Positions 2,069 through 7,977 of a stretch of 64,000 nucleotides of DNA are shown piece after piece (position 1 is the first letter of the stretch; each line of letters starts with the position of its first letter). The position numbers were made by a program, and so were the translations under genes. This DNA is from Chloroflexaceae bacterium (GTDB lineage Bacteria > Chloroflexota > Chloroflexia > Chloroflexales > Chloroflexaceae). The notes beneath the pieces are model-generated. The model saw nothing but the letters and a program-made list of their open reading frames with translations, did no database searches and was not told the DNA's origin. The stretch spans positions 1 through 64,000 of the forward strand of contig JAAUTZ010000012.1 in the NCBI GenBank assembly GCA_012031225.1, in the 5' to 3' direction.

Positions 2069-5000
2069 ATGATGGCTACAACGACCCTTCAGGCTACACT
2101 AGAACAGGCACGTCGCCTACTGGAAAACAACGATACCGAACGGGCTATCGCTGTCATCCAACACATTCTGAAGTACTTTCCCAAGAACCTTGAAGCTGAG
2201 CGCATGCTTGGTGAAGCCTACTTCGCAAGCCGCCAATACGCGCAGGCCCAAGAAGCCTTCCAGCGCGTGCTTGCCGCCGATCCAGAAAATATCCCCGCGC
2301 ACTTTGGGCTAGGGCTGACCTATGAACGCATGGGCCGCATAGACGGCGCGGTGAGTGAGTTTGAGCAAGCCCTCGAAATCAAGCCCGATATGCCCGAACT
2401 CCGCAACCAACTGCTGCGGCTCTACAGCGAGGCGTGGGGCAAGGAAGGCGCACAATTACGCCTGAGCCGACCCGGGCTTGCCCGCCTGTATGCCAAAGGC
2501 AATATGCTCACGCAAGCCGTGCAGGAGTTTCGCGGCGTGGTTACCGATCACCCAGATCGGCTTGACGCACAGATCGGCTTGGCTGAAGCCCTGTGGCGGG
2601 ATGGGCAGGAGGATGCCGCCGCCGCCGAGAGCGAGACGATCCTTGCTCGCCACCCCGATGCGCTGAAAGCCAATCTGTTGCTCGGCTACATTCGCCTTGC
2701 TTCCGGCGATCCGGCTGAAGCGGCACGCGGCACGGCCAATTGGCGTACTGCCCTCGAACTTGATCCGCAGCAGATTGTTGCCCAAGCACTCTTTGAAACG
2801 CTGCCCAGCATTGCCCCAGCGGAAAATAGCCTACCGGCATGGGATGAAGGGCTATGGCTAACCCAGCAAGCAACCGCCCGGATCGAGGAAGAGCAACGCT
2901 CCTATGCCCAAGTTGCGGCTAGCAGTGCCGTATTGCCGGACTACACCGCTGACGATGAGAGCTTCCTATCCGATGCCCTATTTCAGCCCATTGCACCCGA
3001 TGTACCGGATATTCCTGAAGAACCCGACGAAGCCGATATTCTTGCCCGCCTGTTTGCAGCAGAGTCGAAGTTTCAGGATGTGCTGATGCCCAACGAAAGC
3101 GAGTACGCCCCCATCACTGACACCGAACTGGAAGTTACCCCCTTCTCCTTCGACGATTTCGGTGCCGATAGTAGCAGCTTCACTACCCAAGGCACAGCCG
3201 ATGACACTGGCTTGGATTTCGCTTTCAGCCTTCAGGAGCGCAGTGCTAAAGATGTCCCCCCTGCCGCGCCGGAGCCATTCAGCTTCGATGCACCCGAACA
3301 AGCTATTCCGCAGATGGAAGCGGCTGATCCAGATGAACCGGATATGACCCCCTTCTCCTTTGCGGACTTGGGCTTGTCGCCCGATGAGATCGCCCTTATG
3401 CAAGCCCCCTCAGATGAGGATGCAAGTGCCGCGCCGACCATGCCTGCCGATGCAGATGAACCGGATATGACCCCCTTCTCCTTTGCCGATTTGGGCTTGT
3501 CGCCTGATGAGATCGCTCTTATGCAGGGCGGGATTGGCACACCCGATGCACCCGACACAACCGCTATTGCCCCCAACTTCGATGAGCCGCTCAGCGAACT
3601 GACGGATGTGCAACCCTTCGATTGGAGCCTTGACGTAGGGGATGACATCCCAAGCGCAACTGGGCAGAGTGCAGGCGCAGATTTGCACATGGATGACCCG
3701 ATAGGTACGGTACAGCCCTTCAGTTGGGCTGATATGGATGCAGATGCGGGCGGTGATCCGTTCAGCTTTGAGCAAGCCGCCCCCCCTCCGGCCCCTCCAA
3801 GCAAACCCACACCCTCAGTCGCCGCGCAGCCAGTGCAGCCCTTTTCGCTCGATGATCTTAATCTTGATGATCCTCTCTTGGGCGGCAATGACGATAGTCT
3901 GCCGATCTCACTGCAACCCTTCTCAATGGATGATCTAGATATGGCTGGGCTGACTGATGACGACTCCGACGAGATGGGCTTGTCTGCATTCGGCATGAGC
4001 TTCCCAGCAATGTCTGAGCAGAGTAGCTTCACACCAATGGACTCGCTGCCAACATTGTCAGACGAAGATGCCCCACCGGACAATGCCGCCTATAGCTGGC
4101 AGACCCCTTCCTCACGCGCTGCACCGAGCTTCGCCAGTGATAACGATGATGAGCATGAGGCTCCGCCGAGCAGTGGCGAGTCCATCTTCAATAAGCTCAA
4201 GCAGCGCCGGCAGGAAATTGTCGTTGAGGAAGAACCGCTTGCCCCCGTCTCGCTCGATGATGATGATGAAGCAGCTCAATTCTTCTCCACCGATGATGTT
4301 TCGCTACGCCTTGAGGAATCGGGCGATGCCGATGAGCACGGGATGCGAGCAGGCATTATTGGGCTGAGTGGACTAGCTGCCGCCGTCGGCTTGGCAAATA
4401 CAGACGAGCTAACAACACCCGAACCTACCGCATCCGCCGAACCCGCCGAACCCACCCTGACCCCCTTCTCGCTGACTGATCTCGGCTTGTCGCCCGATGA
4501 GATTGCGATGCTCGAAGGTATGGGAAGCGAAGCCGAACTACCACCCGAAATTCCGCTCGCGGCGGCAACACCTAGTGGAGATGCAGAGCCAGAGCTGACC
4601 CCCTTCTCGCTGACTGATCTCGGCTTGTCGCCCGATGAGATTGCCGCGCTCGAAGCGATGAATACAGGCGCAACCGGCGACACCTTCGCCCCCGAACCAG
4701 AGCCGACCACCCCCAGCGCACCCGATGAGCCAGAGCTAACGCCCTTCTCGCTGACTGATCTCGGCTTGTCACCCGATGAGATTGCGATGCTGGAAGGCAT
4801 GGGAAGTGAAGCCGAACTATCGCCCGCTGCGGCAGCACCGAGTACAGATGCAGAGCCAGAGCTAACGCCCTTCTCGCTGACTGATCTTGGCTTGTCGCCC
4901 GATGAGATTGCCATGCTCGAAACCACAAACACAGGGGACGATCCGTTCGCTACCGCGCCAGAGCCGGAACCAACGCTAGATCCGTTTCAGGCCCTGTCGG

Positions 5001-6964
5001 TTCAGCCCTTCTCGGCAGCTGATTTCGGCTTGGATAATCTCGATGATGAGAGCTTCGACAGTCCTACCAATTCCGTTTCGCTCGACTCACGCGGTACAGA
5101 TACCCTATCCGATCTTGCCGGTGTTGGGATCCAGCCTTTCTCGCTGGATGATATTGGCTTAGATGATAGTTTTAGCTTGAGCTTTGATGATGATGATGAC
5201 GGTCGGCTTGGCTTGACTGAAGCCGAGCTTTCCGGGTTAGATTTCTCCGGCTCTGCTGCATCCACCAGCCACTCACCGGAAGATGCCCTGCAAGTGCTGA
5301 TGGATCTCGGCAAACAGCAGGGCTTCGTAGACCTGACAGATATTATTAATGCCGTAGAGAACCCGCTCGTGGAGCCGGAGCGAATTGAAGAGATTGGGCG
5401 AGCGTTGCATCAAGCAGGCATCGAAATCCGTGATGGGGATGAAATCATCCCGATGGACGACGAAGAACTGTATGAGGATGAGGAGTACGTCGTCGAGGCT
5501 TCTGAGCCAGAACAAGAGCTAGCAGTTGCCGAGACCGAGCCAGAGCTAGCGGTGCCCGATGTGAGTACCCCCCTTGCAGAGGAGAGCTTTGATTTCGATT
5601 TGGGCGCGTTCGATCTGAATATCCCCGACTTCTCCGAAGCTGATCTGGCGCAGGAGATCGCCGCCGCTGTCGAGCCGCCGGCTGAGCCGCCGGCCGAACC
5701 TGTCGCCGCACCGCCCGCAAGCACCAGCGATGATGAACCGATCATTGCCCCCCTCTCGCTGGCGGACTTCGGGCTGTCGCCGGAAGAGATTGCCATGCTT
5801 GGCTTGGATGCTGGCTCAGGCTTGGATGCCATCCAAGATGTCACCGATACCAGTGCAAGTGAGCCGGTAGCACCTGTTGCACCGGAGCCAGAACCAGAGC
5901 CGCCTGCCCCTGCGCCTGAAGCTGACTTTGGACTCTCTACGACGCAACTCGACAAGCTCCGCTCGCGGGCCCGCAATGCTGAAACAGAGGCGGAATCTAG
6001 GCGCACTGAGCCGGAAGTTAGCCCCTTCTCACTCGAAGACCTTGGCTTATCACCAGCTGAAATCGAAGGGCTTGGGCTAGAGATCGCAGCAACTGCGCCA
6101 GAACCGGAAGGGCTTGATGATAGCTTCGATTTCGGTATGCTGGATGCTATAGGCGGCGCACCCAAAGTCGAGCGCACGCGCCCACGTCCGGTAGATGAGC
6201 CACCTCCGCCGCCTTCAGAAGAAGATGTCACCTTCACGGCGGAGCCACTGGACAGCCTTGACGATGTCTGGGATACGCCCCCGCCGGAGGTGAGCGAAGT
6301 GCCCGCACGGGTAGTGCTTCCGCCGCGCCCAGAGCCGCGCCAGACCCGCGTGCTAACCCGTCCATTGGATGAGGATGCGGTGCCAACAGCCCGGGCCCGC
6401 GATCCGCGGGCCCGCCCCCTGCGTGCAGACCGCAAAGAAGCCCCGCAGCGGGGTGGGCGGCACGTATCGCTGAGCGAGTTACGGGCATCGGGCAATGCCC
6501 CAGATACCTTCGCCGATCCAACAGAGGCTCCCCCGCCACCGCCACCACCGCGCCAGCCCGCCGCTCCCGTGCGCCCCACCCCACCCCCGCCTGCCGCACC
6601 TGTTGCGCCTGCGCCACCGCAGATAGTCCAACGGGCACCCATCGGTGAGCAACAACACACCGGTAACGCAATGATTGATCAATACATTGATCAACTCGCG
6701 GGCAATCCCGATAACGTCTCCATGCGCCTTGCGGTAGCCCGCCTGAGTGCCCAATCGGGCTACCCCGACGTGGCTCTGCAACAGTACAAATTAGCCCTGC
6801 GGAGCGACACCATGCTGGCTGAGATTAGCGATGACCTGCAAGACTTGGTTGATGAGCTGAATGATCCGACAGTACTACGGCGGCTGTACCGCTTGCTCGG
6901 TGACATCTACACACGGCAGGGCGATGTGCATCGCGCTATGCAAGCCTATAGTTGGACTCCGTGA
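2069..6964 (+). CDS. Giant TPR scaffold protein with repeated PFSL-type motif
   Basis: About 1,631 aa. Start chosen at the ATG ATG pair (2069/2072) because AGGAG at 2061-2065 precedes it. The N-terminal ~230 residues are tetratricopeptide repeats (ERAIAVIQHIL, YAQAQEAFQRVL, DGAVSEFEQALE units). The C-terminal ~80 residues again resemble TPRs. Between them lies a very acidic, Pro/Ala/Glu-rich, probably disordered stretch. It carries about 17 copies of a motif whose best form is PFSLTDLGLSPDEIAMLE. A Pro-rich segment (PPPPPP) precedes the C-terminal TPRs. No enzyme motif or membrane segment is visible. The next gene encodes a Roadblock protein, so a role as a multivalent scaffold, perhaps in polarity or gliding motility, is inferred only. 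The specific function is unknown. Confidence 0.85.
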   Translation: MMATTTLQATLEQARRLLENNDTERAIAVIQHILKYFPKNLEAERMLGEAYFASRQYAQAQEAFQRVLAADPENIPAHFGLGLTYERMGRIDGAVSEFEQALEIKPDMPELRNQLLRLYSEAWGKEGAQLRLSRPGLARLYAKGNMLTQAVQEFRGVVTDHPDRLDAQIGLAEALWRDGQEDAAAAESETILARHPDALKANLLLGYIRLASGDPAEAARGTANWRTALELDPQQIVAQALFETLPSIAPAENSLPAWDEGLWLTQQATARIEEEQRSYAQVAASSAVLPDYTADDESFLSDALFQPIAPDVPDIPEEPDEADILARLFAAESKFQDVLMPNESEYAPITDTELEVTPFSFDDFGADSSSFTTQGTADDTGLDFAFSLQERSAKDVPPAAPEPFSFDAPEQAIPQMEAADPDEPDMTPFSFADLGLSPDEIALMQAPSDEDASAAPTMPADADEPDMTPFSFADLGLSPDEIALMQGGIGTPDAPDTTAIAPNFDEPLSELTDVQPFDWSLDVGDDIPSATGQSAGADLHMDDPIGTVQPFSWADMDADAGGDPFSFEQAAPPPAPPSKPTPSVAAQPVQPFSLDDLNLDDPLLGGNDDSLPISLQPFSMDDLDMAGLTDDDSDEMGLSAFGMSFPAMSEQSSFTPMDSLPTLSDEDAPPDNAAYSWQTPSSRAAPSFASDNDDEHEAPPSSGESIFNKLKQRRQEIVVEEEPLAPVSLDDDDEAAQFFSTDDVSLRLEESGDADEHGMRAGIIGLSGLAAAVGLANTDELTTPEPTASAEPAEPTLTPFSLTDLGLSPDEIAMLEGMGSEAELPPEIPLAAATPSGDAEPELTPFSLTDLGLSPDEIAALEAMNTGATGDTFAPEPEPTTPSAPDEPELTPFSLTDLGLSPDEIAMLEGMGSEAELSPAAAAPSTDAEPELTPFSLTDLGLSPDEIAMLETTNTGDDPFATAPEPEPTLDPFQALSVQPFSAADFGLDNLDDESFDSPTNSVSLDSRGTDTLSDLAGVGIQPFSLDDIGLDDSFSLSFDDDDDGRLGLTEAELSGLDFSGSAASTSHSPEDALQVLMDLGKQQGFVDLTDIINAVENPLVEPERIEEIGRALHQAGIEIRDGDEIIPMDDEELYEDEEYVVEASEPEQELAVAETEPELAVPDVSTPLAEESFDFDLGAFDLNIPDFSEADLAQEIAAAVEPPAEPPAEPVAAPPASTSDDEPIIAPLSLADFGLSPEEIAMLGLDAGSGLDAIQDVTDTSASEPVAPVAPEPEPEPPAPAPEADFGLSTTQLDKLRSRARNAETEAESRRTEPEVSPFSLEDLGLSPAEIEGLGLEIAATAPEPEGLDDSFDFGMLDAIGGAPKVERTRPRPVDEPPPPPSEEDVTFTAEPLDSLDDVWDTPPPEVSEVPARVVLPPRPEPRQTRVLTRPLDEDAVPTARARDPRARPLRADRKEAPQRGGRHVSLSELRASGNAPDTFADPTEAPPPPPPPRQPAAPVRPTPPPPAAPVAPAPPQIVQRAPIGEQQHTGNAMIDQYIDQLAGNPDNVSMRLAVARLSAQSGYPDVALQQYKLALRSDTMLAEISDDLQDLVDELNDPTVLRRLYRLLGDIYTRQGDVHRAMQAYSWTP
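3136..6080 (+). repeat. About 17 coding repeats of a PFSL.DLGLSPDEIA-like motif
   Basis: Full-length copies start near nt 3346, 3469, 4457, 4595, 4736, 4862, 5747 and 6018. Shorter or degenerate copies (QPFSLDDL, QPFSWADM, QPFSMDDL, QPFSAADF) lie near 3136, 3274, 3610, 3711, 3757, 3835, 3914, 5005 and 5134. The four copies between 4457 and 4925 are almost identical in DNA, at spacings of 138, 141 and 126 bases, all multiples of three. This indicates recent in-frame amplification. Each copy pairs an aromatic/Pro head with a short acidic amphipathic helix. Confidence 0.85.
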
Positions 6965-6981
6965 GGATAACAAAGCGGTGC

Positions 6982-7022
6982 GATGATGCGGTGTTGGTGG
7001 ATAAGCCCTGCACCGCATCATC
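6982..7022. terminator. 12-bp hairpin after the scaffold gene
   Basis: Perfect arms GATGATGCGGTG (6982-6993) and its complement (7011-7022) around a 17-base loop, 18 bases past the stop codon. No U-tract follows. Position suggests a transcript end or RNA-stability element. Confidence 0.55.
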
Positions 7023-7106
7023 CGAATCTGGTGTACAATAGGTTCTCAGATATACGATTTCCGATACCGTGTGCATCGTCTGTAGCTGAGAGCTGACGCT
7101 GCAAGA

Positions 7107-7469
7107 ATGAAAGGGCAGCTTATGCGACGCATAGTTGAAGACCTAATCCGTGTGGATGGGGTCATTGGGAGTCTGCTTGTAGGCAAAGATGGGCTTGTGG
7201 TTGCCAGTACCCTTTTGGATGAAGAAGATGCCGAGGTGCTGGGCGCAATGTCGGCTGCCGTGTTTGGCGAGATTGACAAAGCCACCAAGCGTATTGGCGT
7301 GGGCACACTCACCGATGCAATCATAGATGCCAAAGATGGTTCGATTCTGGTGCTTGAAGCCAAAGACCTGATCCTTGTCGTGATTACCCAACGCACGGTC
7401 AATTTGGGCTTGGTCAAGATGGAGATGCGCCGCGCTGCCAAACGTATCAGCGAGGCCGTGCCGATCTAA
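7107..7469 (+). CDS. Roadblock/LC7 domain protein (MglB-like)
   Basis: 120 aa, essentially one Roadblock/LC7 domain. Family hallmarks visible are the RRIVEDLIRVDGVIGSLLVGKDGLVVAS opening strand-helix-strand (first 20 residues: RRIVEDLIRVDGVIGSLLVG), a central LGAMSAAVFGEIDKA helix and a C-terminal helix after the VVITQ strand. Such proteins dimerise and, in MglB-type systems, act on a small Ras-like GTPase. No GTPase gene is present in this window. An internal ATG at 7122 has AAGGG six bases upstream and may be the true start, removing five residues. It follows the TPR scaffold by 142 bases, and Ndk follows. The functional link to the scaffold is inferred. Confidence 0.85.
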   Translation: MKGQLMRRIVEDLIRVDGVIGSLLVGKDGLVVASTLLDEEDAEVLGAMSAAVFGEIDKATKRIGVGTLTDAIIDAKDGSILVLEAKDLILVVITQRTVNLGLVKMEMRRAAKRISEAVPI

Positions 7470-7527: not shown

Positions 7528-7977
7528 ATGGAAAAGTCACTGATTATTCTGAAGCCGGATGCCGTCCAACGGGGTTTGATCGGTCAGATTATTACGCGCC
7601 TTGAACAGCGCGGTTTGAAGTTTATGGGCATGAAGCTGATGCAGGTTTCGCCCGAACTTGCCCAGAGCCACTATGGTGAACATGAAGGCAAGCCCTTCTT
7701 CGGCGCACTCGTGAGCTATATCACCTCATCGCCCGTCGTCGTGATTGCCATTCAGGGCAAGAATGTCGTCCAGACCATCCGTAATACCGTCGGCGCAACC
7801 AATCCGATGAATGCCGCGCCCGGCACGATCCGCGGCGATTTCGGCTTGGAGATCGGGCGCAACCTGATCCACGCTTCCGACTCGCCGGAGAGCGGCGAAG
7901 CAGAGGTCAGCCGCTTCTTTGACGCTAGCGATCTGATTACGTGGGAGCGCAACACCGATGCGTGGATCCACGAGTAA
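7528..7977 (+). CDS. ndk: Nucleoside diphosphate kinase
   Basis: 149 aa, normal length for Ndk. It transfers the gamma phosphate from ATP to other NDPs in the cytosol via a phospho-histidine. The catalytic motif NLIHASDS is present with the active histidine at residue 115, and the N-terminal SLIILKPDAV strand is canonical. The start is the ATG at 7528, just before EKSLIILKPD, with GAGGAG 13 bases upstream. A longer reading frame back to 7474 lacks family similarity. It lies 58 bases after the Roadblock gene on the same strand. Confidence 0.97.
   Translation: MEKSLIILKPDAVQRGLIGQIITRLEQRGLKFMGMKLMQVSPELAQSHYGEHEGKPFFGALVSYITSSPVVVIAIQGKNVVQTIRNTVGATNPMNAAPGTIRGDFGLEIGRNLIHASDSPESGEAEVSRFFDASDLITWERNTDAWIHE

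Follow-up and report, generated by a model that had tools for sequence, protein, structure and literature searches.

Genes and domains at the locus

The window analysed here is the 64,000-nucleotide stretch at positions 1 to 64,000 of contig JAAUTZ010000012.1 from a Chloroflexaceae bacterium, read on the forward strand. It carries a gene for a large protein with tetratricopeptide repeats (TPRs) at both ends and a long, acidic, repetitive and mostly disordered core between them, followed by genes for a Roadblock/LC7 protein and for ndk (table 1). The open reading frame, TPR ends, acidic core and downstream Roadblock gene described in the earlier note were all confirmed. A strong ribosome-binding site precedes the ATG ATG at the start of the scaffold gene, and scaffold orthologues were found in 41/41 relatives. 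Upstream of the locus lie genes for tRNA-Arg (CCT; 125–197) and tRNA-Pro (GGG; 1676–1752).

Membership of the TPR group was assigned at both ends from Pfam matches and from the helical repeat fold, with Foldseek returning generic TPR superhelices for the N-terminal domain. The core also contains a domain, overlooked in the earlier note, which scored above the Pfam cut-off for sigma-70 region 1.1 and, among PDB entries, matched RpoD region 1.1 weakly (E 0.014). This domain is embedded in a scaffold that is not a sigma factor; it was present in this order and in the Roadblock-less genome G073, with no Pfam report in the scanned relatives from families f6, f8, f9 and f10. Assignment of the motif region to DUF1127 (PF06568) was rejected: the score is a sum over motif copies, and about 12 C-terminal positions of the 37-residue model match in the best stretch.

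Table 1. Positions of the features of the scaffold–Roadblock locus in the window.
Feature	Position	Strand	Details
TPR–disordered core–TPR scaffold gene, 1631 aa	2069..6964	+	ORF; GAGGAG before ATG
N-terminal TPR superhelix, aa 1–245	2069..2803	+	AlphaFold pLDDT about 95–98; Foldseek TPR folds
Short-type PFS motif, aa 358	3140..3166	+	
Long motif PFSFADLGLSPDEIALMQ, aa 428	3350..3403	+	helix-turn-helix in AlphaFold model
Long motif, aa 469	3473..3526	+	also in AlphaFold model
Short-type PFS motif, aa 550	3716..3742	+	
Short-type PFS motif, aa 591	3839..3865	+	
Short-type PFS motif, aa 617	3917..3943	+	
Long motif PFSLTDLGLSPDEIAMLE, aa 799	4463..4516	+	
Long motif, aa 845	4601..4654	+	
Long motif, aa 892	4742..4795	+	
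Long motif, aa 934	4868..4921	+	
Short-type PFS motif, aa 980	5006..5032	+	
Short-type PFS motif, aa 1023	5135..5161	+	
Sigma-70 region-1.1-like domain, aa 1071–1145	5279..5503	+	Pfam PF03979 34.6 bits, cut-off 22.5
Long motif, variant PLSLADFGLSPEEIAMLG, aa 1228	5750..5803	+	
Long motif PFSLEDLGLSPAEIEGLG, aa 1319	6023..6076	+	
C-terminal TPR domain, about aa 1480–1631	6506..6961	+	conserved match in relatives, Roadblock-less ones included
Perfect 12-bp inverted repeat (GATGATGCGGTG / CACCGCATCATC, 17-nt spacer)	6982..7022	+	in TPR–Roadblock gap
Roadblock/LC7 protein, 115 aa	7122..7469	+	Pfam PF03259 64.8 bits, cut-off 23
ndk (nucleoside diphosphate kinase)	7528..7977	+	downstream neighbour of Roadblock gene

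The Roadblock protein was placed in the Roadblock/LC7 family by its Pfam score and fold; Foldseek searches with the L081 orthologue returned archaeal Roadblock and MglB structures at TM values of about 0.8–0.93 (up to 0.90 for MglB 6hjm). Translation probably starts at ATG 7122 (MRRIVEDL), since a stop codon lies just 5' of it in relatives L045 and L050. The gap between the TPR and Roadblock genes measures 157 bp in the window and 18–90 bp in many relatives, and no T-run terminator was found at the inverted repeat within it. The gene order TPR–Roadblock–ndk also occurs in L154, L155, L090 and L093.

MglA-like GTPases are present in the same genome, with no GTPase gene of the module in the loci read. 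A Roadblock gene, a DUF4388 gene and a small MglA-like GTPase gene stand in a row at L097:5805-7679 (C182), a candidate Mgl-type switch cluster. A second Roadblock protein of 122 aa is encoded beside a rho-like gene at L096:7953-8318 (C50); it is 90% identical to that of G030 and conserved like the Roadblock protein of the window, and high Roadblock conservation was therefore dropped as a sign of a multi-motif hub.

Motif copies and selection

A copy was counted if its core read PFS..(D/E)(L/F/I/M), a few further fragments being left out. By this definition the scaffold core holds 14 PFS-type motifs, eight long copies with the GLSPxEI helix and six short copies of the QPFSLDDL type, whereas shuffled cores averaged 0.025 and never exceeded 1. 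The figure of about 17 copies given previously is thus near the strict count, which excludes fragments, and the alternation of strict and degenerate copies proposed with it proved not to be regular: the two classes sit in blocks.

Across 388 long copies from 48 loci the consensus was L-[TQE]-PFSL-x-[DE]-LGLS-x-[DE]-EIA-x-L, with P1, F2, S3, L7, G8, L9 and E13 each conserved in at least 96%, where P1 to G8 are partly fixed by the search expression, and L9, S10, E13, I14, A15 and L17 not fully. In the short class PFSL..L is kept and the sequence then diverges. Between the window and L037, from the same genus, dN/dS was 0.057 in the motifs and 0.215 in the linkers (p about 5e-9 in an approximate Fisher test on rounded counts, the motif columns having been picked from the sequence of one protein of the pair). 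The corresponding values were 0.109 for the N-terminal TPR domain, from which the motifs did not clearly differ (p 0.07), 0.149 for the C-terminal TPR domain, 0.124 for the region-1.1-like domain and 0.016 for the Roadblock protein.

That tandem duplication in low-complexity DNA produced the copies as a functionless side effect is already disfavoured and, in our estimate, extremely improbable. Adjacent copies are near-identical at the DNA level in several genomes and array length varies, as this reading would have it, but motif dN/dS is far under that of the linkers, residues stay constant while codons vary (same-residue copies in the window differ at several codon sites), a single consensus holds across families, and short forms survive in other families of the class.

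Distribution of the motif and the gene pair

The long-motif DNA pattern matched 70 of 150 relatives, with zero matches of a reversed control pattern in every genome, and in a 251-genome sample of the phylum it was confined to this order, apart from one single match outside the class. Two matches were found in G085 (family f8), where the Roadblock gene is adjacent too (L086), and one in G097. Matches in the listed genomes fall in one gene, sometimes broken by contig ends. Many metagenome contigs stop within the scaffold gene (L040–L042, L051, L056–L058 and others); the tandem motif array probably breaks assembly, and copy numbers in draft genomes are lower bounds.

Families f9, f6 and f10 keep the TPR–Roadblock pair with simpler repeats (DLKPFSFDDLDLG in f9, EPFSFDNLFAEP in f6 and GIEPFTFDDEE in f10), on which account PFS[LF] appears to be the older element of the motif and the GLSxxEIA helix a later addition. 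Of 28 Roadblock-positive Chloroflexia proteins, 27 carried 6–32 matches to the relaxed pattern PF[ST][FL] in the core and one carried a single match. Ktedonobacteria have the TPR–Roadblock order, followed by ndk in L090 and L093 at least, and their TPR proteins contain no PF[ST][FL] at all; the pair is therefore older than the motif, and pairing needs no motif. Their cores (L090–L095) show other conserved segments, e.g. ALRxMFAEL and ExxFxxSGF, each apparently single-copy. A possible association between the GLS helix and the type of Roadblock C-terminal helix was broken by L088.

Joint loss of motif and Roadblock

Neither a Roadblock domain anywhere in the genome nor a long motif was found in any of 13 genomes of genera g21 and g32 (60–98% completeness), and the TPR protein was found in 10 of them at the search threshold. 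The six Roadblock-negative proteins readable in full had zero PF[ST][FL] in their cores, which are also less acidic (11–15% D+E versus 15–31%). In L161 and L163 the TPR gene now abuts ndk, as expected if the Roadblock gene had been deleted. G073 keeps the region-1.1-like domain without Roadblock or motif, so the motif, and not every part of the core, tracks Roadblock. The N-terminal TPR domain is kept in g32 at 47% identity to the window with the motif gone.

Other genes were searched for in the same clade, whose genomes are smaller. No DUF4388 was found in the g21 and g32 genomes searched (11 of the 13), the small-GTPase search returned only weak matches within larger frames in the six genomes searched, and the PilT/GspE-type ATPase family gave no match in the g21 genomes searched. 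Both g32 genomes keep one secretion-type (PilT-family) ATPase, without Roadblock, DUF4388 or motif. In the tree of the N-terminal TPR domain g21 and g32 form one clade with moderate support (SH-aLRT about 87); two independent Roadblock losses were therefore rejected, and the co-loss is one natural experiment.

The earlier note had suggested searching for the motif apart from a Roadblock neighbour and checking whether the two co-occur. The outcome favoured the note: wherever the locus was readable, the motif had such a neighbour. The long motif lies essentially within this order and f8, with Roadblock adjacent there too, and all 13 Roadblock-less genomes of g21 and g32 are without it. In 48/48 relatives with enough upstream sequence, the gene immediately after the scaffold gene is this same Roadblock gene.

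Structure predictions

AlphaFold was run on window residues 1–500 (N-terminal TPR domain and three motifs) and on a chain from L081 in which intergenic stops were read through, comprising three motifs, the sigma-1.1-like domain, the C-terminal TPR domain and one Roadblock copy. The read-through chain is a modelling device with a single Roadblock copy in a single chain, and no biological claim attaches to it. It gave confident separate domains (pTM 0.36) and no resolved motif–Roadblock interface. The model of residues 1–500 (pTM 0.61) showed confident blocks with low-confidence linkers between them, the long motif forming two short helices (aa 431–434 and 438–444, pLDDT about 85) in a chain without Roadblock. 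The motif is thus predicted to be a small helix-turn-helix of its own local shape, Roadblock present or not, and its raised confidence was dropped as a hint of docking. The two models speak neither for nor against docking.

Candidate partners of the motif

The motif is probably a docking site for the Roadblock switch system, to judge from gene context and joint loss; both favour a link between motif and Roadblock module as a whole. The earlier note had proposed direct docking on the neighbouring Roadblock dimer. The link between motif and Roadblock is upheld by co-occurrence and synteny, and the single-chain model with one Roadblock copy resolved no interface for the peptide; we regard direct Roadblock binding as plausible, with a probability of about 0.4.

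Since the motif disappeared along with every Roadblock paralogue, DUF4388 and the small GTPases, another member of the module could be its partner: an MglA-like small GTPase, another Roadblock paralogue or a DUF4388 protein, with the neighbouring Roadblock meeting the scaffold via the TPR domains. Ktedonobacteria pair TPR and Roadblock without motifs, the genome of the window has its own Roadblock–DUF4388–GTPase cluster (L097), and direct TPR–GTPase binding is known, SgmX binding MglA (PMC11580455). Yet the constant neighbour of the scaffold is the Roadblock gene, with none of the module's GTPase genes in the loci read, and we hold this alternative to be somewhat unlikely. It is a good deal less likely that the motif binds the scaffold's own TPR domains or other motif copies, giving a network or condensate of which Roadblock would be a separate client. 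TPR grooves often bind short peptides, and here grooves and motifs share one chain with a long, acidic, repetitive core; against this, g32 retains its N-terminal TPR domain though motif-free. The model of that domain with three motifs, confident blocks on low-confidence linkers, is not decisive.

The motif might instead serve a partner unrelated to Roadblock, such as RNA polymerase reached through the sigma-1.1-like domain within the core, or a pilus or surface machine, and would then have been lost as the small-genome clade left a surface lifestyle. The smaller genomes and the lack of PilT/GspE-type matches in the searched g21 genomes agree with such a history. However, g32 is motif-free while keeping a PilT-type ATPase and, in G073, the sigma-1.1-like domain, and wherever the locus is readable the motif is accompanied by the adjacent Roadblock gene; we consider such a partner very unlikely.

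The proposed docking array and its relation to known systems

Most economically, the observed motif, its array, the selection on it, the synteny and the co-loss with the Roadblock/GTPase/DUF4388 module are read as an array of repeated docking sites for Roadblock, which would concentrate a GTPase-regulating module. The giant TPR protein would then be a multivalent scaffold, its two TPR domains the stable, ancestral part and its acidic disordered core the presenter of many copies of a short linear motif. The ancestral motif core may have been [LIV]xPFS[LF][DE][DE], to which the GLSxxEIAxL helix would have been added in this order. Each copy would serve as a docking peptide for the next-door Roadblock protein, probably a homodimer, and one scaffold could gather many Roadblock dimers together with the MglA-like GTPases regulated by them. 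That the bound partner is Roadblock, in dimeric form, is our inference, as is a role of the assembly in placing a GTPase switch, which might serve surface motility.

Repeated short motifs in a disordered chain bind copies of one folded partner in CsoS2 and EPYC1. Motif, partner and organelle differ from those of the window scaffold, and no homology is claimed. In the Myxococcus polarity module, a helix beside a disordered region of RomR docks on the Roadblock protein MglC, at the dimer interface in a model (PMC12719032); a Roadblock-docking helix by a disordered region and an MglA GTPase system would be shared with the present case, in which docking is a proposal. RomR combines a folded receiver domain at its N terminus with a single docking helix, whereas the window scaffold has many motifs between TPR domains, no receiver domain among its Pfam hits, and no sequence relation to RomR found or claimed. 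RomY is a case of low-affinity Roadblock partners (PMC9481161). SgmX of Myxococcus, a TPR protein recruited by MglA, is likewise tied to an MglA/Roadblock polarity system (PMC11580455); its 14 TPRs bind MglA, while those of the window scaffold flank a long acidic motif core. MglB and the conservon protein CvnB share the Roadblock/LC7 fold with the window neighbour, which differs in having no adjoining GTPase gene and in scoring far under the MglB equivalog cut-off (20.5 bits with the NCBIfam model, cut-off 200).

The filamentous Chloroflexota are gliding bacteria that grow as multicellular filaments. Little work has addressed their cell biology (PMC7332563), and among open-licence papers none joining Chloroflexus, Roadblock and tetratricopeptide was found. 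It is conceivable, though on balance doubtful, that the scaffold is a Chloroflexia-specific organiser, a single chain whose repeated peptide draws in as many as about thirty Roadblock dimers and focuses GTPase regulation on one place in the cell, as the Roadblock-based equivalent of CsoS2-like motif-array scaffolds. If true, this would add a multivalent array to the single helices through which docking on Roadblock proteins takes place, with a directly testable short peptide. The conserved large scaffold–Roadblock switch locus would offer a concrete entry point to the cell biology of filamentous Chloroflexota.
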